IMG/VR virus record: IMGVR_UViG_3300036845_000360
Location: 1 to 32,053 of that record
Direction: 5' to 3' (one strand)
Source: a virus
Length of the DNA stretch: 32,053 bases
Within the stretch, counting starts at the first letter, position 1, and the number at the start of each line of letters is the position of its first letter. Positions 7,834 through 17,611 of this stretch are shown piece after piece. Position numbers and translations under genes: made by a program. The notes under the pieces are model-generated. The model made no database searches. It was not told where the DNA came from and saw nothing but the letters and a program-made list of their open reading frames with translations.

Positions 7834-10623
7834 CTACTGGTTATCTCCCTGTTCATCCTGTTCCGGTGTTTCCATCGGAACCGCGATCATACGCGCAATC
7901 AGCGGCGCGGCTTGCTGGATACTGACACCGTTGCGAACTGCATATTCGACCATGTTTCCGATGTGCGGATTGGTCGCCGCGATGCGGAGTACTGCGCGCG
8001 TTGCCGCCGCGCCGCCCACGGCTCCCTCCCATCCCGAAAGCCCCATAGTGCGCGCCAGGGCCGTACCCCCGATTGCTCCTGCTGCCGTCAGCCAGCCGCC
8101 GCCCTGGATATTGCCGGTCAGAGTGTGCGAGACGCTCGAAAAAAGTTCATTTGTCGGCCTCGCGGTATTGGCTTTGGAGAGAAGTAGCGTGATCTGTTTG
8201 AGATTCGAGAGCCCATCTTTGCCGATGAGCTGCTCAAGCTGTTCGCGGTTGGTGCCATCGGCAAGATAGCTTTCCAACCGCTTCGCCTTGCCGGTGACCA
8301 CCCGCGGCAATCCTTGGTCGCTTTCCTCCATCGTGACGCCGTTTGCCATGCCCTCAAATACCGCGTGCAGCTCGTTGAGACGTGAAGACGATCGCCAGGC
8401 ATTTTTCGCCGTCATGTAATCCTGCATATTCACGGCACCGCGGTGCCTGTCAATCAGGTCTGAAATGCCATCATTGGCCTCGCGTAGATTGGCCTGGGCT
8501 TTCTCGTATGCCTCTACGGTGGTCGAGCGTTGCATGACCCCCTGCGCTTGCTTGGCCGCTTCTTTCAGCTTGTTGAACTCGCCGTCGCTTGCCTTGTCGA
8601 GCGTCTGATAGACCGGCTGCGCGGCCGATTCGATCTGACTTGCGGCATCTCCGAAGGTTCGCACCTGGCCGACCGCGCCGGCCACGTCGATGGGAGCGAA
8701 ACGCTGAGCATAGGGCGAGCTGTGATACATCCCCAACTGCTGCTGGAGATTCTGCCGCTGCGTCTCAATGGCTTGCTGCTGGGCATCGCTGAGTCTGGAA
8801 AATTCGGGGGTTCTCTGGAGGTCCTCGATCTGGCGCAACCAACCTTCGGCCTGCCGGGGATCGGTAGTTTCAAGATTGCCGCCGCCGGTTACTTTCTCGC
8901 CGGCCGCTTCCGGGGTTCGCGCCGTCGAAATGTCGGCTCCCGTTGAGCCTTCCGTAACCCCGACGCCAGGCCTGTAACCCGGCGCGCTGCTCCCCGTCTC
9001 GCGGGCAGTTCTAAATGCGTTTCCTTCGGGTGTTCTTACGGCATCCTGAGCCACCGGAGGTATTAACCCGCCCGATTGTTCGGCTCTGTCATACAAGATT
9101 GTGGCAAGTCCATTTCGTTTCCACTCATCTCTTACTACTACGTCCGGGTTGTACCGCTGACCGTTAGGCTCTTCTACTCTGGAATAACTTAGATCGCCTA
9201 TAGGAGTTCCCTTGTCATCAAAAGCTACGATTCTTCCCTCGTCGCCATCTCGACTGATGGCATGGACGAGCCTGACTTTCTCCCCGTTCTTTAGTGTCTG
9301 CGTCTCATAATTTCCTTCGGCAATGGCATTAGTCCAAAGACCATTTGGATTCCATCTAGAACTACTCCACCCGCCGCCTGTGCTTCCGGTGTATTCAATG
9401 GTTGGGCCTTTGGCGGTACCCATACCGGGCCGTATCGGTTCCCTCGTCGGCGCGCTGGCGGTCGTATATTGCGGCTCTTTGAATGCTGCCCGGCCTCCTA
9501 CTTTGGCGGCCGATTGTGCCATCTGGCCTTCCGGCAGCTCCTCGGTCCCGGTTCCTTCGAGCGTGAATTTGAAGGGTGCGGTTCCTTCCGGGGCCGGCAG
9601 CATCCGGCCGGCTTCTTCCGTGGCCGCGAATGCTGGCCGCGTCCGGTTGATTTCTCCGAGGGCGTTTGCCGTCGCCTGCGCCGCCGTGTTCTGAATGACT
9701 CGCTGGCCGGCCTCCTGCTGGGCCTGTGCGATGGCTGGCGCGCCTTTCGCGCCCGTATCCATAGGTTTGCCTGCCTCGTTCACCTGGGAGGCAAGGGCGG
9801 GCGTCTCTACGCCGCCAATCTCGATATTCCTGGGCGCGATGCCTTCTAGATACTTTTGCGCGCCTCCCATGCCCGCACTTAACCCGCCACCCATGACTGC
9901 CGCCACGGCCGATTGCTTCGGGTCCTCAGTGTGGGCATAGGTCTGCGCTCCCATTGCCGCTGCGTCTTGTGTTGCCTTCAGACCGATTGAAACCAGGCCG
10001 GCGACCTTCGGGTACTTCTGGAGCGTGGCCATGATCTGTTGCGCGCCTTTTAAACGCTCCGCACCTTCAACGGCTTTTGAAGCGACTCCCGCCGCTGTCG
10101 CTCCGCTGCCGGCCAGCTTTAACAACCCCTCGCCGGTCATGTACTCAATCGCTTGCTCCCCAACCTTGCCAACCGTCTCCAATGGATCTTGCGATTCGGT
10201 TCCCGCTCTCAGCCAGTTGGCCGCGTCCTTAACGTGCCGGTCGATGTGATAGCTGAGCGATTTCTGATAATCGGCTTCGGCCTGTGCGTCGGTGGCCTGG
10301 GGATTTTTATTTTTATATCCAGCCTTCCACTCGGCGGGGCTCTGGCTGATCATGTCGAGCAGGCCGCCCGCGCCTTCGCCCATGCCTTTCACAAATCCTG
10401 CTGCCGTGCTGCTGCCCCATCCCTGTGCCTGTTCTTCTGGTGTGCCGGCGAGATACTTCTCGGCTAACCCGCCAAGCCCGCCGCCCGATGGCGCCGGCGG
10501 CGGTGTCGCCGAATTCAAACTTGCCCCTGGAGGTAGCGGGGGCAAAGAGCCGCCGCCCGGCGTGTTGAGTGTCGCGCCGGCTGGAAGTGGCGGAAGTCCG
10601 TTTAAGGCTGCGCTGCCACCCAT
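7834..10623 (-). CDS. large internal/ejection protein with an embedded GNAT-like domain
   Basis: A 929-aa protein with a Pro/Gly-rich low-complexity N-terminus (1-50), long helical Ala/Gln-rich parts (60-345 and 570-830) and a Gly/Ala-rich hydrophobic region at 840-885. These are typical of large internal virion proteins ejected into the cell by podoviruses. Residues about 405-525 are different: a beta-rich part (RIVAFDDKGTPIGDLSYSRV) followed by VVVRDEWKRNGLATILYDRA, which matches the acetyl-CoA loop (R/Q-x-x-G-x-A) of GNAT acetyltransferases. DNA under that part has much lower GC than its surroundings. GAGGGG precedes the ATG, and the start overlaps the upstream gene by 22 bases. The domain may modify a host protein after injection, or may be a non-catalytic remnant. 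Confidence 0.7.
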   Translation of the reverse strand: MGGSAALNGLPPLPAGATLNTPGGGSLPPLPPGASLNSATPPPAPSGGGLGGLAEKYLAGTPEEQAQGWGSSTAAGFVKGMGEGAGGLLDMISQSPAEWKAGYKNKNPQATDAQAEADYQKSLSYHIDRHVKDAANWLRAGTESQDPLETVGKVGEQAIEYMTGEGLLKLAGSGATAAGVASKAVEGAERLKGAQQIMATLQKYPKVAGLVSIGLKATQDAAAMGAQTYAHTEDPKQSAVAAVMGGGLSAGMGGAQKYLEGIAPRNIEIGGVETPALASQVNEAGKPMDTGAKGAPAIAQAQQEAGQRVIQNTAAQATANALGEINRTRPAFAATEEAGRMLPAPEGTAPFKFTLEGTGTEELPEGQMAQSAAKVGGRAAFKEPQYTTASAPTREPIRPGMGTAKGPTIEYTGSTGGGWSSSRWNPNGLWTNAIAEGNYETQTLKNGEKVRLVHAISRDGDEGRIVAFDDKGTPIGDLSYSRVEEPNGQRYNPDVVVRDEWKRNGLATILYDRAEQSGGLIPPVAQDAVRTPEGNAFRTARETGSSAPGYRPGVGVTEGSTGADISTARTPEAAGEKVTGGGNLETTDPRQAEGWLRQIEDLQRTPEFSRLSDAQQQAIETQRQNLQQQLGMYHSSPYAQRFAPIDVAGAVGQVRTFGDAASQIESAAQPVYQTLDKASDGEFNKLKEAAKQAQGVMQRSTTVEAYEKAQANLREANDGISDLIDRHRGAVNMQDYMTAKNAWRSSSRLNELHAVFEGMANGVTMEESDQGLPRVVTGKAKRLESYLADGTNREQLEQLIGKDGLSNLKQITLLLSKANTARPTNELFSSVSHTLTGNIQGGGWLTAAGAIGGTALARTMGLSGWEGAVGGAAATRAVLRIAATNPHIGNMVEYAVRNGVSIQQAAPLIARMIAVPMETPEQDEQGDNQ

Positions 10624-12491
10624 TTACCACCCCTCACTACAAGCGTTTCGCCGTTCGCGCCTTTAGCCGTGGGCTCGCCTGGCTGTACTTTTAACGGGGT
10701 TGCCGCTGGAGCTGTGCCGCCCGGTGCGTTCGTCTGCGGCCCTCCACCTGGCTGCTGTACGCCGTGCCATTGCTGCAAATAGCGGTTATCTCCGATGATT
10801 TCCCGCTTGCGGTTGCCAAGCAGCTCACGGAATGTCGTAGAAACCTCTTTGAGTTGCTGCCTGTTGAAGTTTTTATTGAGAATGTCGATGCCTTGTTGCA
10901 GTTTTTTGTCGCTGGTGGAACTACCCGTACCGCCGCCCTGTAACACCTTCGCCACTTGATCGGCCACTTCAACAAGTGCCGTCTGATATGCGGCAACCTT
11001 AGAGTCGCCGCCGGCTATTTTTGCCCATTGGTCAATAGCGTTGATGGGGGGGTAATTACCCTGCTTGAGTTGGTCGGCCATCGCAACCACTGTGCCCAGG
11101 TTGCCGCTCTGGTTATCGCGGCCCACAAGCGAATTGAGGTAGTTCAAGGTGTTGTAGGTTTGCGTGTTGGTAGCAAATTTGTAATCGCCAGCGGCCTTGG
11201 CAATATCGAATGGCTTGCCGTACTTTGACAACGAATAGGCATTCGCCGCCGCCAACGTTGCATCGTAAGTTTTTGACCGCTTCGATAGATTTGTCGGGTC
11301 CATCGTGCCATCAACAAGCTGCTGAGCGTTGGAATTGAGCGTGTTCTGATCCGTGGCGTTATTGAGTACAGCGGTTTCGGAGCGATCTTTTTCAGCTCCC
11401 GCATACGCTTGCGCGGTCTGCCCGGCCCTCAATTTCTCTTCGCTCGTTTCCTTTTTCTCTTCTAACGTTTGCTTCTTCTGTTCTAGGTCGTTTTTCAGAT
11501 CATCCTGCGCCTGCATGTGTATCGTAGAAATCCACTCCCGCCTGGGAATTGAATCTTTCGGAATGGTGTAATTAACAGTCCTCAGTTTCCCGTCTGCCCC
11601 CTTTATTTGCTGCGTCACCGGGGTTTCTGGGTTGGACTTGGAATCAAGCCATGATGGGGTCACGATCGCATAATGCATACCCTGAACAGTCGGCTCGCCT
11701 TTGTCGTTGAACACAATATGCGGAACGCCCTGAATAAATCCTGTTGCCAGAGCAGTATGTAATTTAGGGTTCTGGTTCGCCATTTTGTAGGCGTCCATTT
11801 CGTTATCGACGTTCCCAAGATCAATGGAACCTTCGCCCCCGTCTTTAATAGCTTTCGCAAATTGATTTTCGCGGTCGATGTATTTCTGTGCATCTTCCAC
11901 CTTCATGCTCGCGTTTTCATAGGCAAGACGCGAGGTTTGCATATTCAGCATGGATAGATTTGCCTTCTGCAATGCCGCTTTCTGCTGTGCCTCAAAGTCC
12001 TGGTCAGCATCCTGCCGCGCCTGTTGGTCGCGTTGCCGCGCCATGCCCATTCCGGCCGCGACCCCCGCGCCGGCTCCGCGCAGCGCCCCGCCTGGTCCGG
12101 TGGTTCCTGCCTGAGCCGCGGCGCCGAATCCTGAGAGCGCGCCGGCAATGATCCGCTTCCATTGCGTACCAGGCCCGGAGGCTACGGGCGTAGCCGTCAA
12201 TTTTCCTGTGGTGGGATCGCGCGCGTACGATACATCGCCGGAACCGCCCAAAGCATTCAAGACGCCGTGATAAACCTTGGTGCCCCAGCTATCTTGCTTG
12301 AGGGCATGTTCGGTCGGTGTCATGTTTTGAAGCGGCGTTTCAGGAATGGACGCGCCGGTGGCCGGCGCAGTATCGGTAGTGGTCAGGACCGGCTGCGCTG
12401 GCGCATTCGACGCATCGGCAGCAGGGGTCGCCGGGGTCGCTGCCCCACCCGCCGCCGAATCTTGAGTATAGCCGTTGTCCATAGTGGGCAT
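10602..12491 (-). CDS. probable internal/ejection protein, 629 aa
   Basis: The frame extends to 12737, but the segment before 12491 overlaps the upstream gene and lacks a ribosome site. GAGGTAGGG precedes the ATG at 12491. The protein begins MPTMDNGYTQDSAAGGAATP, has an Ala/Pro-rich flexible part, an Ala/Gly-rich hydrophobic patch (RIIAGALSGFGAAAQAG), then long helices with Gln/Lys/Glu-rich coiled coil (DLEQKKQTLEEKKETSEEKL), and ends with ETLVVRGGKWVAAQP. There are no catalytic motifs. It is the middle of three consecutive helical proteins between the large tail protein and the hydrolase, the location where T7-type phages keep gp14/15/16-like ejection proteins. That assignment is positional. 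Confidence 0.65.
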   Translation of the reverse strand: MPTMDNGYTQDSAAGGAATPATPAADASNAPAQPVLTTTDTAPATGASIPETPLQNMTPTEHALKQDSWGTKVYHGVLNALGGSGDVSYARDPTTGKLTATPVASGPGTQWKRIIAGALSGFGAAAQAGTTGPGGALRGAGAGVAAGMGMARQRDQQARQDADQDFEAQQKAALQKANLSMLNMQTSRLAYENASMKVEDAQKYIDRENQFAKAIKDGGEGSIDLGNVDNEMDAYKMANQNPKLHTALATGFIQGVPHIVFNDKGEPTVQGMHYAIVTPSWLDSKSNPETPVTQQIKGADGKLRTVNYTIPKDSIPRREWISTIHMQAQDDLKNDLEQKKQTLEEKKETSEEKLRAGQTAQAYAGAEKDRSETAVLNNATDQNTLNSNAQQLVDGTMDPTNLSKRSKTYDATLAAANAYSLSKYGKPFDIAKAAGDYKFATNTQTYNTLNYLNSLVGRDNQSGNLGTVVAMADQLKQGNYPPINAIDQWAKIAGGDSKVAAYQTALVEVADQVAKVLQGGGTGSSTSDKKLQQGIDILNKNFNRQQLKEVSTTFRELLGNRKREIIGDNRYLQQWHGVQQPGGGPQTNAPGGTAPAATPLKVQPGEPTAKGANGETLVVRGGKWVAAQP

Positions 12492-12520
12492 ATAGTCCCT
12501 ACCTCGTTTGCACCTGTTCG

Positions 12521-13153
12521 CTAAGCGTGTGCTTTTCCGTACATCCAGCCGCCCGCCGCCTGGCTTCCAATGCCGCCCAGCGCGCCGATGATTGAGCCCC
12601 ACATCGAATTTTGCTGCTGCGTAATGGTGTTGGCTTCCGCGTTGGCCGTGCCCGCTGCTCCAGTTGCCGAACCCGAAAATGAGTTGGGGTTCCATCCCGC
12701 CGCGAGATCCTCTTCGCCGGCCACGGCCTGTTGCCATTCCTGGTGGCCCTGCCCGTAGCCGGCCTGCTGAATCTGCTGCTGTCCCATGCTCTCGGTCGTC
12801 GCCGCTTCGCTGGCGAGCTGCTCGCGCATCTGCGCCGTTGCTCCGCTGGTGAGATTGACGTTGCTGGTACCGCCGCCCTGCGTAGCAATCGAATCCTGCA
12901 ATGCCTTCTGCGCCGATCCGTAATTGCGCGCCGTTCCCTCAGTGGCGATGCTGTTGAGGTTTTGCACTTCGGCATCGGAAAAACCAAATTGATTGGGGCC
13001 TTTTGCGATGATGGGCGCGAATTGAGCATTCAACGTGTCCTGGATGCCTTTGAAATTCGAATAGGCCGTGTTGTATGCGTCGATCTGGGTTGCATAAAAC
13101 TGCGCCTCTTCGTCCTGCAATTTGAGCTGCGTACTAGATGGACCGCCGCACAT
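12521..13153 (-). CDS. probable internal/ejection protein, 210 aa
   Basis: The ATG at 13153 follows an AGGAGG site and lies within two bases of the upstream stop; the longer upstream extension overlaps the GNAT-like gene and is rejected. The protein starts MCGGPSSTQLKLQDEEAQFY and is dominated by Gln, Ala, Ser and Thr, with a helical first half and a C-terminal segment rich in Ala and Gly (SMWGSIIGALGGIGSQAAGG) that could contact a membrane. Small Gln/Ala-rich proteins with an amphipathic or hydrophobic C-terminus are common as the smallest member of podoviral ejection sets. I base the call on composition and position and do not recognise a defined family. Confidence 0.6.
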   Translation of the reverse strand: MCGGPSSTQLKLQDEEAQFYATQIDAYNTAYSNFKGIQDTLNAQFAPIIAKGPNQFGFSDAEVQNLNSIATEGTARNYGSAQKALQDSIATQGGGTSNVNLTSGATAQMREQLASEAATTESMGQQQIQQAGYGQGHQEWQQAVAGEEDLAAGWNPNSFSGSATGAAGTANAEANTITQQQNSMWGSIIGALGGIGSQAAGGWMYGKAHA

Positions 13154-13154
13154 A

Positions 13155-13613
13155 TCAAGCAACCTCCTGCGGTGGAATGAACCGCACCAGTTCGTTTGGG
13201 CTTGCCTGGAATCCCATGAAAACCCGTGCCAGTGCTCGCAGGTCGCTCGATTCGCTGTCGAATATCCATTCGGTACAGCCGGCATGTTTTAATCCGACTT
13301 CAAGAAAAGCCATGCCTTTCAAAAGCGCCATTCGCATTTGCCGGCGGTGTTCGCGGATCGAGCTCGCCCCCCGCGGCTGGGGCCGGAACTGGATATGCAC
13401 CCGCGAGGCGCGCGCGAGGCGAACGTACATCAGCTCTCCGTCGCCGCCCTCGATCACAAATGCGTTCGAGCGGGGATCTTCGCCCATGAAAAACTCAGGG
13501 GTCAAAACGCCGACGTGGGCTTCATCGGCCGCAATCCACTCCCTGAGCTGCGCCAGGTCTTTATCCTCGATCGCTCGCAGCGTGAAACCGTCGAATTTTG
13601 CGAGTTCGGCCAT
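13155..13613 (-). CDS. GNAT-fold acetyltransferase-like protein
   Basis: 152 aa beginning MAELAKFDGFTLRAIEDKDL, with the strand-helix opening of GNAT enzymes, then REWIAADEAH, a central beta sheet (NAFVIEGGDGELMYVRLARA), a helix over about 86-108 and an ending with TEWIFDS and a GFQASPNELVRF segment that resembles the usual 'GF....el' end of the fold. The R/Q-x-x-G-x-G/A loop is not obvious, so activity is uncertain. The ATG is overlapped by the upstream TAA (TAATG) and preceded by AGGGA. Proteins of this sort are found next to tail or ejection genes in other podoviruses. The role is unknown; it may modify a virion or host protein, or be a structural GNAT fold. Confidence 0.6.
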   Translation of the reverse strand: MAELAKFDGFTLRAIEDKDLAQLREWIAADEAHVGVLTPEFFMGEDPRSNAFVIEGGDGELMYVRLARASRVHIQFRPQPRGASSIREHRRQMRMALLKGMAFLEVGLKHAGCTEWIFDSESSDLRALARVFMGFQASPNELVRFIPPQEVA

Positions 13614-13846
13614 TAGAGTTCCCTGATTGGTAGATACCGCCGCGATGGGAGCCCAGGGGCCCGGTAGAACTGCCGCGAATAGGCATCGTTTCCGCTCGCC
13701 ATCGGGGGCAGGGAAGAAACCATGACGGGCATCATCCCCTGCAATCCAACAATCTCCAGCGGCGGCACAATCGCCATCTGCGGCTGCGGTGGGCTCTGTA
13801 CAGGCTGGCCATGCGTCGGTATTCGTGTGCTCCTGGCTGTGGGCAT
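13613..13846 (-). CDS. hypothetical Pro/Met-rich small protein
   Basis: 77 aa, MPTARSTRIPTHGQPVQSPP..., rich in Pro, Met and Gln, with little predicted structure and a basic end (LPSRRYLPIREL). Both ends overlap its neighbours by one base as TAATG, and GAGGAAGTA precedes the start, so it is part of a coupled chain between the large tail protein and the GNAT-like gene. I do not recognise it. Low-complexity linker-like proteins are common among minor virion components. Confidence 0.55.
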   Translation of the reverse strand: MPTARSTRIPTHGQPVQSPPQPQMAIVPPLEIVGLQGMMPVMVSSLPPMASGNDAYSRQFYRAPGLPSRRYLPIREL

Positions 13847-16800
13847 TACTTCCTCGCCTTCGTCGGCAATCTGCCGTAAATCGTGTATGTGAGCAATTCG
13901 TTGGGAAAGTTCTCAGCCGGCCATGAGAGTTCCACTTGCATGTGGCGCGCGACTTGTACGGTGTCGGGGTCCTGGCTGATCCAGCATCGCTGGGAAATCA
14001 AGCTCTTGCTCCTGGGCAGATTCGGCGGGTCTGGAACCACGTTGCGAAGCGTGTTGAATGTCCCTTCAATCTCGTCAAACAAAACGCCGATACTCAACGG
14101 CGATGCGCCGGCAATGGCCTTCTCTTCGCTGGTGATGAACTGCACCCCCACGAACAAACCAGGCTGCGCGAGCTGAATGGATCCAATATCCGCAATGGCA
14201 TCGTAGGGCGTGATATTGTCCCGATTCGCCGTGAGGTCGCGCATGAGGATCGGCCCATCGCTCGTTGGTCCCAGCAAGAGCCGGCGAATACCCGGCGAGA
14301 TTTCGAGCGAAGCAATGGCCTTAACCCCTCCCTCGATCAAGGCGCGATTGCTCCACACGTTCCCGCTCTCCGGGGCGGCCACCGCCGCCATTCGGTGCCA
14401 CCCCTGCGAGCCATCGGCAACATATAGAGCCATATCGCGGCTCGCGCCCTGGTGCCAAGCACAGTAGGTATTCGCCGGCACATATAACGAATCAAACTGA
14501 TCCCCGATGGGAAAGCCGACTTCTGTCTCGCCGGCGCCGGGGTCCATCGAAACGAGCTGACCGCTCACAAGCATCGCGTAAGCCGTCGAGCCGTTGACGC
14601 AAAATGCATCCTGGCTGGCCAGGCCGATGCCCTCCTGGAAGTTGACCACATAGAAAGGCGAATCGCTGGTGCCTTTGCCCAGCACTGCCCACACGTCCGA
14701 CTGCGTAAAGCAGATGAGCCCCACCGATGTGGGCCAGCAGGTGACGCCCAGGCTGGGGAAGGGAATTTGATTGAGCGGAGCAAAGGATTCGTTGCCGTTG
14801 CCTGTCACGACGTCGGGGCCTCCCGACCACACCAGGATGTTGCCCATCCATCCCCAAATGCGATTGAGGTAATAGCACTGCGGCAAAAAGCCGACCGGCG
14901 GCGGGGCGTTCGTGCTGTTGATCGGCGCGGTGATGAGGAAATTAAGCTGCCCCTGCTGCGGGGTTGTGGTGGACGATGGATCGGCGTTGGTGTCGGTGTA
15001 AATCCACGTCTGCCCAGCTCCGGGGTTGGGAAACTCATCGTCGTACATGAGCAGCGAGCCGCCCTGCACCGTGCGCCACAAAACAATGGTGTCGTACTGT
15101 GGATCGGCCAGGCCTTGGCCTTGAATCACGGCGAATTTTCCCAATCCGACTGTAAGCGGCTGGCTTAAAGGTGAAGCGGTGCCAATGTGTCCAGTGATGG
15201 AGTTCTTGCCCGAATAGGCCCATATCCACGGCGCGGTGTTGCCTTGGCTGTAAGGCCCGGCGTTAAGCCATTCCTGCGAGCCGTCTCCAATCATCGAGCC
15301 GGCTGTTGTGGGCCAGGTGGGAGCTGTGGCGCCGGATTCTCCAAGCTGCTGCGGCTTTTCGATGTATCCGTTGCCGTCAATGACTTGTTTTGCCATGCTC
15401 AGGGTTTGAGTCGCTCCCGGCCACGCATTTTGGGATCCGCTGTTTACCCATACGACCGTTCCATCTGTTACCTGTGTTCCCAGGCCTGCGCTCCACGCCG
15501 GTGCGTTCGCCCCGCTGGTTCCCGCCGTGATACAGGTGAACGTCTGCGTGACGGTTATCTGCTGCTGCGTAGTGGTCAGGATGTAATAGGGCGGGTAAGG
15601 TACGCTCTGGCCGGTCGTGACGTTGATGGTGTAGGTGAACGTCACCATCACCGAATTGCCCACCGCGTAAGCGGTCAATGCGACCCATGCCGAAGCGCCT
15701 AGATTCGTCCATACGCATGTGCCGTCTGCGGTCGTGCCTCCGGTCGTGACGTTCCACGCTGGAGCTGCGCCGCCGGTCACTCCTGCTGTTGTCAATCGCT
15801 GGAGATTGTTGTTGCTGTCCAGAATCACGAATGATGGCGCGTACCAGGTATTTGCGGCCCAATTCGGATAGATCGAGGGCGCGGCCGTCTGCGTAACGGT
15901 CGGGGGATTGGCCGGCGCATCGGCCCCCCAACCCTCGATGGCGGTTCCCATGTTTATCCATTGTTCTCCGCCGTCCTGCGTTGCCAGGCTCACCGTTGCA
16001 TTCCAGACCGGCTGGGTGGCGCCCGTGATCCCGGTCCCGGTGCTGGCCGTTCCCGTCTCCGTCGAGTAGGCCGTTACAGGGGGATTGCCGCCGCTCGCAA
16101 TCACCACGAAATGAACCTTGAGGCTGCTCTCTACAACTGCCGTGTAAGGCGTGGTGCCATTCAAACTTGGGACCGTTGTTAATCCGGCCAGCGTGAGCGC
16201 GATATTGCTCTTGATGCTGAGAGGCTTGCCAGGATCGAAATAGAGCGTGACCTTGCGCGCTCCTGCCGGCGAAGAAAGAGATTCGACCTGGATGTTTACG
16301 AGGTTGGCGGTCTGCGCGCCTATCGAGAGTTGCAGATTATTGTTTGTGTCCAGAATGAAATCGCCCGGCGCAAATTGCGTATTCGCGGCCCAGGCCTTGC
16401 CGCTGGTAACCCATTTTTTCGCGTCAACGCCATCGGAAAAATAGAGCACATTGCCGACACTCAGAAAGCAGGTGCGCCCGGCGCTCGGGTCTTTCGTCCA
16501 AAGGGTGATGTTGTTCGCCGGCCCGGTCACATCGCGCACGGTTCCATGTGTGGATCCACTCGCGGGGTCACAGCTCGCCATGATGTGAATTTGCTCTGAG
16601 CGGCCCTGAAAGCTGCGAAATTCATAGAACCGATTCACCGGCGGGATCGGCCCCGGATTGTAGACCGGATTTCCCGGCCTCCGAATCAGGGTTAGCCGGG
16701 TGCTGATTTCCACGTTTTTGCCGCCCAGCAGCCTATCATAGCGCGATGCAGAATAGAACTTCTGATAGAGATATGGGACCGCGCCAGGCCCCAGCGGATT

Positions 16801-16902
16801 GCCCTGTGTCCACATCCCTGTAAAAAACTCGTTGGTATGGAGCGGAGCTGCGGAGCTGGGCTCGATCTGCGCGCCGGCGGTTTGAAAGGGAGATTCGGGC
16901 AT
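13846..16902 (-). CDS. large tail protein (tail tube B / stabilisation beta-propeller type) with repeated surface modules
   Basis: The ATG at 16902 follows GGGAGGTTTAGG and lies directly after the upstream stop, giving 1018 aa. Residues 40-165 (YLYQKFYSASRYDRLLGGKN, then RLTLIRRPGNPVYN and LYFSDGVDAKKW) and 580-1018 (WSGGPDVVTGNG, WPTSVGLICFTQSDVWAVLG, WHQGASRDMALYVADGS) have the repeated short-strand pattern of the beta-propeller tail proteins that follow the connector in podoviruses. Between them lie residues 171-549, several copies of a W/Y-rich module with the pattern AP-x-W ... DG[TGS]-x-x-W-x-N-x-G, not expected in the core tail protein. The protein probably forms the tail nozzle, and the modules may be exposed binding domains. 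Confidence 0.7.
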   Translation of the reverse strand: MPESPFQTAGAQIEPSSAAPLHTNEFFTGMWTQGNPLGPGAVPYLYQKFYSASRYDRLLGGKNVEISTRLTLIRRPGNPVYNPGPIPPVNRFYEFRSFQGRSEQIHIMASCDPASGSTHGTVRDVTGPANNITLWTKDPSAGRTCFLSVGNVLYFSDGVDAKKWVTSGKAWAANTQFAPGDFILDTNNNLQLSIGAQTANLVNIQVESLSSPAGARKVTLYFDPGKPLSIKSNIALTLAGLTTVPSLNGTTPYTAVVESSLKVHFVVIASGGNPPVTAYSTETGTASTGTGITGATQPVWNATVSLATQDGGEQWINMGTAIEGWGADAPANPPTVTQTAAPSIYPNWAANTWYAPSFVILDSNNNLQRLTTAGVTGGAAPAWNVTTGGTTADGTCVWTNLGASAWVALTAYAVGNSVMVTFTYTINVTTGQSVPYPPYYILTTTQQQITVTQTFTCITAGTSGANAPAWSAGLGTQVTDGTVVWVNSGSQNAWPGATQTLSMAKQVIDGNGYIEKPQQLGESGATAPTWPTTAGSMIGDGSQEWLNAGPYSQGNTAPWIWAYSGKNSITGHIGTASPLSQPLTVGLGKFAVIQGQGLADPQYDTIVLWRTVQGGSLLMYDDEFPNPGAGQTWIYTDTNADPSSTTTPQQGQLNFLITAPINSTNAPPPVGFLPQCYYLNRIWGWMGNILVWSGGPDVVTGNGNESFAPLNQIPFPSLGVTCWPTSVGLICFTQSDVWAVLGKGTSDSPFYVVNFQEGIGLASQDAFCVNGSTAYAMLVSGQLVSMDPGAGETEVGFPIGDQFDSLYVPANTYCAWHQGASRDMALYVADGSQGWHRMAAVAAPESGNVWSNRALIEGGVKAIASLEISPGIRRLLLGPTSDGPILMRDLTANRDNITPYDAIADIGSIQLAQPGLFVGVQFITSEEKAIAGASPLSIGVLFDEIEGTFNTLRNVVPDPPNLPRSKSLISQRCWISQDPDTVQVARHMQVELSWPAENFPNELLTYTIYGRLPTKARK
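15256..16392 (-). repeat. repeated modules within the tail protein (AP-W...DGT-W-N-G)
   Basis: Within the tail protein, two copies of WAANTxxAPxxxILDxNNNLQ (residues 171-191 and 348-368) and four copies of a 25-30 residue segment with the pattern (T/A)(Q/A)P(V/A/T)W ... DG(G/T/S) .. W.N.G, ending at about residues 320, 403, 489 and 549. The best copy has TTADGTCVWTN. Repeats are divergent in DNA, so they are old or under diversifying pressure. The same module is present in the connector-like protein encoded at 17865-18872. Confidence 0.7.
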
Positions 16903-16903
16903 C

Positions 16904-17611
16904 CTAAACCTCCCTCGACCGGTACCGCTCCTGTACGGAAAGCCCCGCGCCCTGGAGCTGCATCGCAGCGCGCAGCCAGTTGCCAAGGAATAAATTGCGC
17001 TCAAGCTCCGAAAGCCCGCCTTGTGTGGCGAGCAGGGAAGTAACAAATTTCTGGTTGTATTCGTTGAAGCGCGCGTCATTGCCGATGAGCGACATAAGGG
17101 ACAAATGCCCCCACTGGCAGATGTAATTTTTTTCGTCTGGAATCGGGGACCAGGTCTGCGCCACGCTGTAAATCAACGGCGGCTTTTTCTGATAGGGCAG
17201 CACAACCGAATAGGACTGATCGGGTGCAGGCATAAGCCGGAAGGTGATGTTTCCGGTTCCATCGTCTATGTATGCGCTCGCGTGTGTGGGCCGCGCGCCG
17301 CTCGCGTCCTGCTCCAGAAAATGCTTTACTGCAATCGCCATCGGGCGGCCGCCTACAACGTTCGCCTGGACGCTGCCGCCTTCAAGAAAGCCGAACGCGC
17401 TCAAGCCTGAAACGGTAAAGTCCTGGTCAGCGGTCGTAAATGTGGCTATCCCGCGATTCCACGGCCAGGCAAACGGGGGGCCGAGCATCGTTTGAATCAC
17501 CAACTGCGCCGAGCTAACGGCGGGGTCCTCTCCGTTGATGAGGACCGGCTGCTGCTCAAGGAATGCAGCTTGCCAATTCAGAGTTTGCTGAATTGTGATC
17601 GTGCTAGCCAT
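16904..17611 (-). CDS. head-tail connector / tail tube A-like protein (paralog 1)
   Basis: The ATG at 17611 gives a 235-aa protein that begins MASTITIQQTLNWQAAFLEQ. The longer frame to 17674 would begin inside the preceding gene. The ribosome site is poor (AGGAGG lies about 30 bases away), so the start is the least certain part. The protein shares a pattern with the connector encoded at 17865-18872: S-T-x-T-I-Q at the N-terminus, QPVL, F-x-W-x-WNR near residue 50, QD[FY], a G-[FW]-[LI]-EG at about 75, and FR-[LI]-x-P-x-P before a helical C-terminus (ELERNLFLGNWLRAAMQLQ). Position directly before the large tail protein matches tail tubular protein A. Head completion is also possible. Confidence 0.6.
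   Translation of the reverse strand: MASTITIQQTLNWQAAFLEQQPVLINGEDPAVSSAQLVIQTMLGPPFAWPWNRGIATFTTADQDFTVSGLSAFGFLEGGSVQANVVGGRPMAIAVKHFLEQDASGARPTHASAYIDDGTGNITFRLMPAPDQSYSVVLPYQKKPPLIYSVAQTWSPIPDEKNYICQWGHLSLMSLIGNDARFNEYNQKFVTSLLATQGGLSELERNLFLGNWLRAAMQLQGAGLSVQERYRSREV

Follow-up and report, generated by a model that had tools for sequence, protein, structure and literature searches.

Two questions are raised by this locus: whether a stretch of low G+C content within the gene of a large virion protein encodes an acetyltransferase (GNAT) domain gained from elsewhere, and whether such an enzyme would enter the host together with the viral DNA. The window, i.e. the whole stretch of DNA analysed, comprises 32,053 nt of the virus record IMGVR_UViG_3300036845_000360 (positions 1 to 32,053). 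Its late module is podovirus-like, lies on the minus strand and encodes terminase, portal, capsid, adaptor, tail-tubular-like, gp13-position, gp14-like, gp15-position and 929-aa proteins and a GDSL-bearing tail protein (Table 1). The order tail-tubular-like / gp13-position / gp14-like / gp15-position / 929-aa gene / tail spike is common to the related contigs L003, L030, L031 and L033. The 929-aa gene comes after the tail tubular gene, completes the gp14-gp15-gp16 order and precedes the tail spike, the arrangement by which podoviral ejection proteins are recognised. Gene order and protein composition are the reasons for labelling the 929-aa product an ejection protein, which probably helps to thread the viral DNA into the bacterium; no profile names this function for it.

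Table 1. Features of the window and of the domain within the 929-aa protein
Feature	Position	Strand	Basis
Tail-tubular-B-like protein, first of the ejection-protein gene block	13846..17079	-	Position and L003 homologue
152-aa protein at the T7 gp13 position	13155..13613	-	Kept in all relatives (alignment)
gp14-like small internal protein, N-terminus MCGGPSST	12521..13153	-	MCGGPSST start in relatives, same place
Second large internal/ejection protein (probable), gp15 position	10602..12521	-	ORF and gene order; L003 homologue at same place
Large ejection protein (probable), 929 aa, T7 gp16 position	7834..10623	-	ORF and gene order
Inserted GNAT domain (predicted), codons 420-539	9007..9366	-	AT3 change-point; absent in four relatives; predicted GNAT fold
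Acetyl-CoA pyrophosphate loop (motif A, predicted), K502-R-N-G-L-A507	9103..9120	-	R503, G505, A507 identical in 17/17 carriers
Second conserved motif, R530-T-P-E-G-N-A-F537, last-helix start	9013..9036	-	T531, G534 in 17/17; F537 in 15/17
Stretch homologous to Acinetobacter phage Ab9 GNAT, residues 434-551	8971..9324	-	tblastn, 39.2% identity, E 5e-17
Tail/spike protein, 906 aa	3186-5906	-	GDSL-like lipase/acylhydrolase match, PF13472

A single enzyme domain is recognisable in the 929-aa protein by family-profile search of its whole length. The NCBIfam scan of the whole protein yielded no match and that of the domain alone gave one, to ThiS (E 0.13), which is taken as chance; PADLOC on the whole protein returned weak, coiled-coil-like JetC matches only. 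Glycine/alanine-rich hydrophobic regions are found on both sides of the domain, and likewise on both sides of the insertion site in T7 gp16. Homology to gp16 outside the GNAT domain was considered and rejected: the GNAT domain accounts for the hhalign alignment, and the flanks, at ~11% identity, give no credible match. The gp16 topology of the 929-aa protein is therefore borrowed from gene position only.

Several neighbouring genes display features of their own. The 152-aa gp13-position protein retains 43-53% identity across all four relatives, and family-profile search of the window member gave no match; it may represent a second GNAT-like fold, by analogy with Alteromonas phage ZP6, in which a solo predicted acetyltransferase lies downstream of the tail tubular genes (PMC8515928). 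The PF13472 match of the 906-aa tail/spike protein (E 1.5e-7, residues 123-209) is slightly below the cut-off, and the protein is possibly a deacetylase or esterase acting on surface polysaccharide. Within the gp15-position gene (10602-12521), ~10800-11700 on the minus strand is of low G+C content (46-53%), and GC3 there falls less than in the GNAT insert. The tail-tubular-like protein of L003 (1-3390) bears an additional segment, starting CFTLNTRIKTEKGTRRIGEI, that resembles a Hint/intein-type insert and is absent from the window homologue (13846-17079).

The preliminary description had placed a low-G+C, GNAT-like domain at 9050-9410 and had suggested another source for it. The motifs it quoted are located in the 929-aa ORF at residues 464-483 and 495-514, and its hand base counts are exact (115 of 240 G+C at 9121-9360; 79 of 120 at 9541-9660). 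The low-G+C insert is real, with 48% G+C as compared to 61-63% on the flanks; its actual limits are ~9007-9366, and the earlier range is off by ~45 bases. An overall G+C dip by itself was rejected as proof of transfer, as the neighbouring gene reaches 46%, and a synonymous-codon test was used in its place because the G+C content of that gene is equally low in places. In this test, codons are drawn anew according to the codon usage found elsewhere in the window, which removes the effect of the protein sequence. The observed GC3 of codons 420-525 is 0.425 against an expected value of 0.663 (z -5.4), and 0 of 2000 simulations gave a value so low. A maximal-segment scan for A/T third positions, run blind to the position of the domain, returned codons 420-539 with a score that 0 of 5000 permutations matched, and this segment corresponds to the domain that homology had identified on its own (residues 434-551). 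Acquisition from another source is supported both by the synonymous codon composition and by the patchy occurrence of the cassette in unrelated ejection and virion proteins. The 929-aa protein gained its acetyltransferase-like domain recently, and the insert has a foreign codon usage.

Four relatives of the 929-aa protein were found in viral contigs (L030, L031, L033 and L032, the last being identical with contig L003), with 48-53% identity over the C-terminal query. The domain is cleanly absent, in frame, from all four, as would be expected of an acquired domain. The flanks in L030 are joined by a short linker, '...RAAFKEPQYTSASAPSRGATRPGGPHLEGQMGEGIRAAEGQTGADIR...', and at this place in the 929-aa protein the GNAT domain sits between '...RPGMGTAKGPTIEYTGSTGG' and 'EGSTGADIS...'. 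The insertion site is a Pro/Gly-rich linker that varies among relatives. No direct or inverted repeats occur at the insert junction, and there is therefore no sign of a mobile element belonging to the insert. Short-peptide searches of viral_contigs with the full-length protein and with the domain alone yielded no relatives, nor did the plasmid search; neither the domain nor the flanks have a relative in the genome contigs, so no bacterial donor was identified in them. Another feature of this family is a C-terminal extension of ~200 residues in the GNAT-less relative of L033 (4762-7674), absent from the others.

GNAT folds have a central mixed sheet with a splay between beta-4 and beta-5 and a CoA-binding helix after beta-4, and the consensus of their motif A loop is Q/R-x-x-G-x-G/A. 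The PF00583 profile matches the whole 929-aa protein below the cut-off (E = 0.003, 18.1 bits) and the trimmed domain above it (21.9 bits vs 20.7). A profile built without the window sequence finds the window domain at E 1.4e-17, and one built from the T7-like rows alone at E 4.8e-6. The GNAT assignment is firm because homologous phage domains were compared; PF00583 on the whole protein is weak. The AF2 model of the domain, made from ten alignment rows, is of moderate confidence (core pLDDT ~75-88, mean 70.6, pTM 0.65). Its best Foldseek match is HAT1 with acetyl-CoA (E 6.6e-5), nearly all of the top 50 being GNATs. With VIA, the protein-lysine acetyltransferase SlPat aligns over 102 residues (rmsd 3.5) at Z 8.3, which barely exceeds the level attainable by unrelated folds; the 50 rows are nearly all GNATs, two lysozyme-inhibitor entries being the exceptions. 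An independent model of a T7-like member matched ESCO1/2 (Z 9.3), and the minimal GNATs YjdJ and At1g77540 were also among its matches. Sequence search of solved structures gave weak GNAT matches among cyclic-nucleotide-binding regulatory subunits, which are taken as chance.

At moderate confidence, residues 420-539 are predicted to form a compact GNAT-fold domain, and the models, both structure searches and the motif alignment agree with the fold and intact acetyl-CoA loop proposed beforehand. Seven positions are invariant across all 17 carriers (G476, R503, G505, A507, Y511, T531 and G534), so the acetyl-CoA loop is kept, with K502 replacing R. Residue 502 is R in 16 of the 17 carriers and K only in the window protein, a conservative departure from Q/R; the loop reads K-R-N-G-L-A here as compared to R-R-K-G-I-A in most related domains. 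The last helix corresponds to domain residues 113-124 of the AF2 model. The alignment of the 17 carriers contains no conserved catalytic Glu on beta-4, no C-terminal Tyr and no clear general acid. Catalytic activity of the window domain is inferred.

The closest of the homologous domains belongs to a 2839-aa polyvalent protein of Acinetobacter phage Ab9 (39-41% identity, E 5e-21), and the two cluster together with support of 99/96. In the Ab9 protein, a PBECR5 nuclease domain adjoins the GNAT on its C-terminal side; injected polyvalent proteins are known for such an architecture (PMC5512222). Bacteroidota-type phages also carry the domain, namely in a 2510-aa protein in L013 and in the crAss-like phage phi14:2, phi13:2, L024 and L025. 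The phi14:2 carrier is recorded as detected in virions by MS/MS, and its gene adjoins that of the virion RNA polymerase.

T7 gp16 itself has no GNAT cassette, and the same domain occurs in gp16 (internal virion protein D) of the T7-like phages EcpYZU01, P7124, LET1, A7, PP74, FOPMU1, VAC71, pO103, ESh9, P7246 and WX2. The cassette is present in 14 T7-like records as against ~1200 records matching the same part of gp16, and is therefore rare and patchy. The Klebsiella phages FOPMU1 and VAC71 have it, and in relatives with 95% DNA identity precisely 561 nt (187 codons) are missing; the gp16 flanks of carriers are 98% identical in protein to those of P6760. Composition gave mostly no sign of recent transfer into the T7-like carriers: the insert is of low G+C content only in LET1, and the cassette therefore matches its surroundings in the other carriers. 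The gp16 of Shigella phage A7 (L005, 2208-7142) contains, just before the GNAT cassette, an additional charged, coiled-coil-like insert of ~130 residues, so more than a single insert can be accommodated here.

In the published model of T7 gp16, which is carried inside the head and leaves through the tail, residues 411-1118 (gp16-C) form a ring within the cytoplasm of the host; gp16-C binds DNA without sequence preference (PMC8954989). The 'clamp' mutations G737D, I754T and E761K abolish a pause in DNA entry (PMC8954989). The cassette is inserted after T7 residue ~718, within the part modelled in the cytoplasm and ~19 residues upstream of G737. Among T7-like members, dN/dS is ~0.08 in the domain as compared to 0.19 in the whole gp16; purifying selection therefore acts on the cassette, and the domain has a function of consequence. 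The domain is a movable, selectively maintained cassette in internal virion proteins of other phages, T7-like gp16 included. Its separate placement in T7-like gp16 suggests that an enzyme is brought in by some phages along with their DNA.

Injection of the 929-aa protein into the cell is likewise inferred, because of its gene order, the behaviour of T7 gp16 (PMC8954989) and the MS/MS record of the phi14:2 protein that carries a homologous domain. The explanation that we favour, and regard as fairly probable, is that a podoviral ejection protein has gained an acetyltransferase (GNAT) domain in frame, and that this domain is virion-borne and delivered with the DNA. As with T7 gp16, the 929-aa protein would be stored inside the head and leave it together with the DNA; the domain, located between two glycine/alanine-rich hydrophobic regions, would come to lie at the cytoplasmic face of the inner membrane, with access to acetyl-CoA. 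In this position it would acetylate the amino groups of at least one protein during the first few minutes, ahead of phage gene expression, with host transcription, translation or defence proteins as the likeliest substrates. In its simplest form, this proposal amounts to a tethered acetyltransferase that may be shown to the cytoplasm while the DNA enters. A bolder extension, which we hold to be doubtful, is that podoviral ejectosomes possess a standard exchangeable effector slot in their cytoplasm-reaching part, and that a GNAT at the entry pore, beside the clamp, acetylates the first proteins met (RNA polymerase or defence proteins, those of restriction included) or renders entry dependent on acetyl-CoA.

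The lack of a conserved catalytic base is compatible with a domain that binds acetyl-CoA or a protein without catalysis and contributes to the structure or regulation of the ejection machine, for instance by adjusting how incoming DNA is paused or clamped or by sensing arrival of the tip in the cytoplasm. The distance of ~19 residues between the gp16 insert and G737, mutation of which releases the DNA clamp (PMC8954989), also suits such a role. However, close relatives function without the domain, which is therefore not needed for ejection; the domain is also present in very different polyvalent and crAss-like virion proteins, for which no such clamp is known; and the CoA loop is invariant. 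We consider a non-catalytic role unlikely. An active enzyme might instead modify the phage's own ejection, virion or entering proteins, for example to free the DNA from lysine-rich surfaces of ejection proteins once acetyl-CoA is available, and both the expected tethering to the ejectosome and the DNA binding of T7 gp16-C without sequence preference (PMC8954989) agree with this. Modification in cis is nevertheless quite improbable, since most T7-like gp16s work without the domain and since its exchange among unrelated carrier proteins favours a substrate common to hosts over one confined to a single carrier.

Patchy presence and location in a Pro/Gly-rich linker variable between relatives are also what a neutral passenger would display, that is, recombination debris tolerated in a disordered linker and decaying. 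Such decay is very hard to reconcile with a dN/dS of 0.08, under that of the whole gp16, with motif residues invariant across phages of several host phyla, and with the separate occurrence of the domain in several carriers; a passenger is thus a highly improbable explanation.

GNAT domains in injected phage polyvalent proteins have already been described (Iyer 2017, PMC5512222). These resemble the window domain in being GNATs within very large, probably injected phage proteins of the late module. They differ in their carrier, which in the window is a 929-aa podoviral ejection protein; moreover, polyvalent proteins have at least two unrelated biochemical domains, as does that of Ab9 (GNAT and PBECR5), while the 929-aa protein has one recognisable enzyme domain. 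The searched text of that study makes no mention of gp16 or internal virion proteins. A literature search on ejectosomes and acetyltransferases, covering mostly open-access papers, found no paper on such a domain, and a review of ejection proteins makes no mention of acetyltransferases. Rac (gp28 of the phiKMV-like phage LUZ19) is, like the window domain, a predicted phage GNAT, and cleavage of the alpha subunit of host RNAP depends on the CoA pocket of Rac (PMC7552054); unlike the window domain, Rac stands alone, is encoded near the phage RNAP gene and is made during infection. T4 Alt, discussed in PMC5512222, is similar in concept, in that an enzyme stored in the head enters the cell with the DNA and modifies proteins, but it is an ADP-ribosyltransferase of unrelated fold and a free protein.

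The T7-like gp16 carriers are similar to the window protein in that the same cassette lies, in frame, in the last and largest ejection protein and is missing from close relatives. They differ in having an N-terminal lytic transglycosylase and flanks that are not detectably homologous, with ~30% identity in the domain. As far as found, what is new is that ejection proteins of podoviruses have gained a GNAT cassette; this applies at least to the window lineage and to T7-like gp16. If this holds, an acetyltransferase forms part of the DNA-delivery machine of some phages, among them T7-like relatives amenable to laboratory culture, and acetylation of host proteins could therefore precede the reading of phage genes. 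Pairs of Klebsiella phages that are nearly identical but differ in the presence of exactly 187 codons provide a natural experiment by which the idea can be tested. The case also shows that uptake of entire enzyme domains, of a type known from polyvalent proteins, is a way in which ejection proteins evolve.
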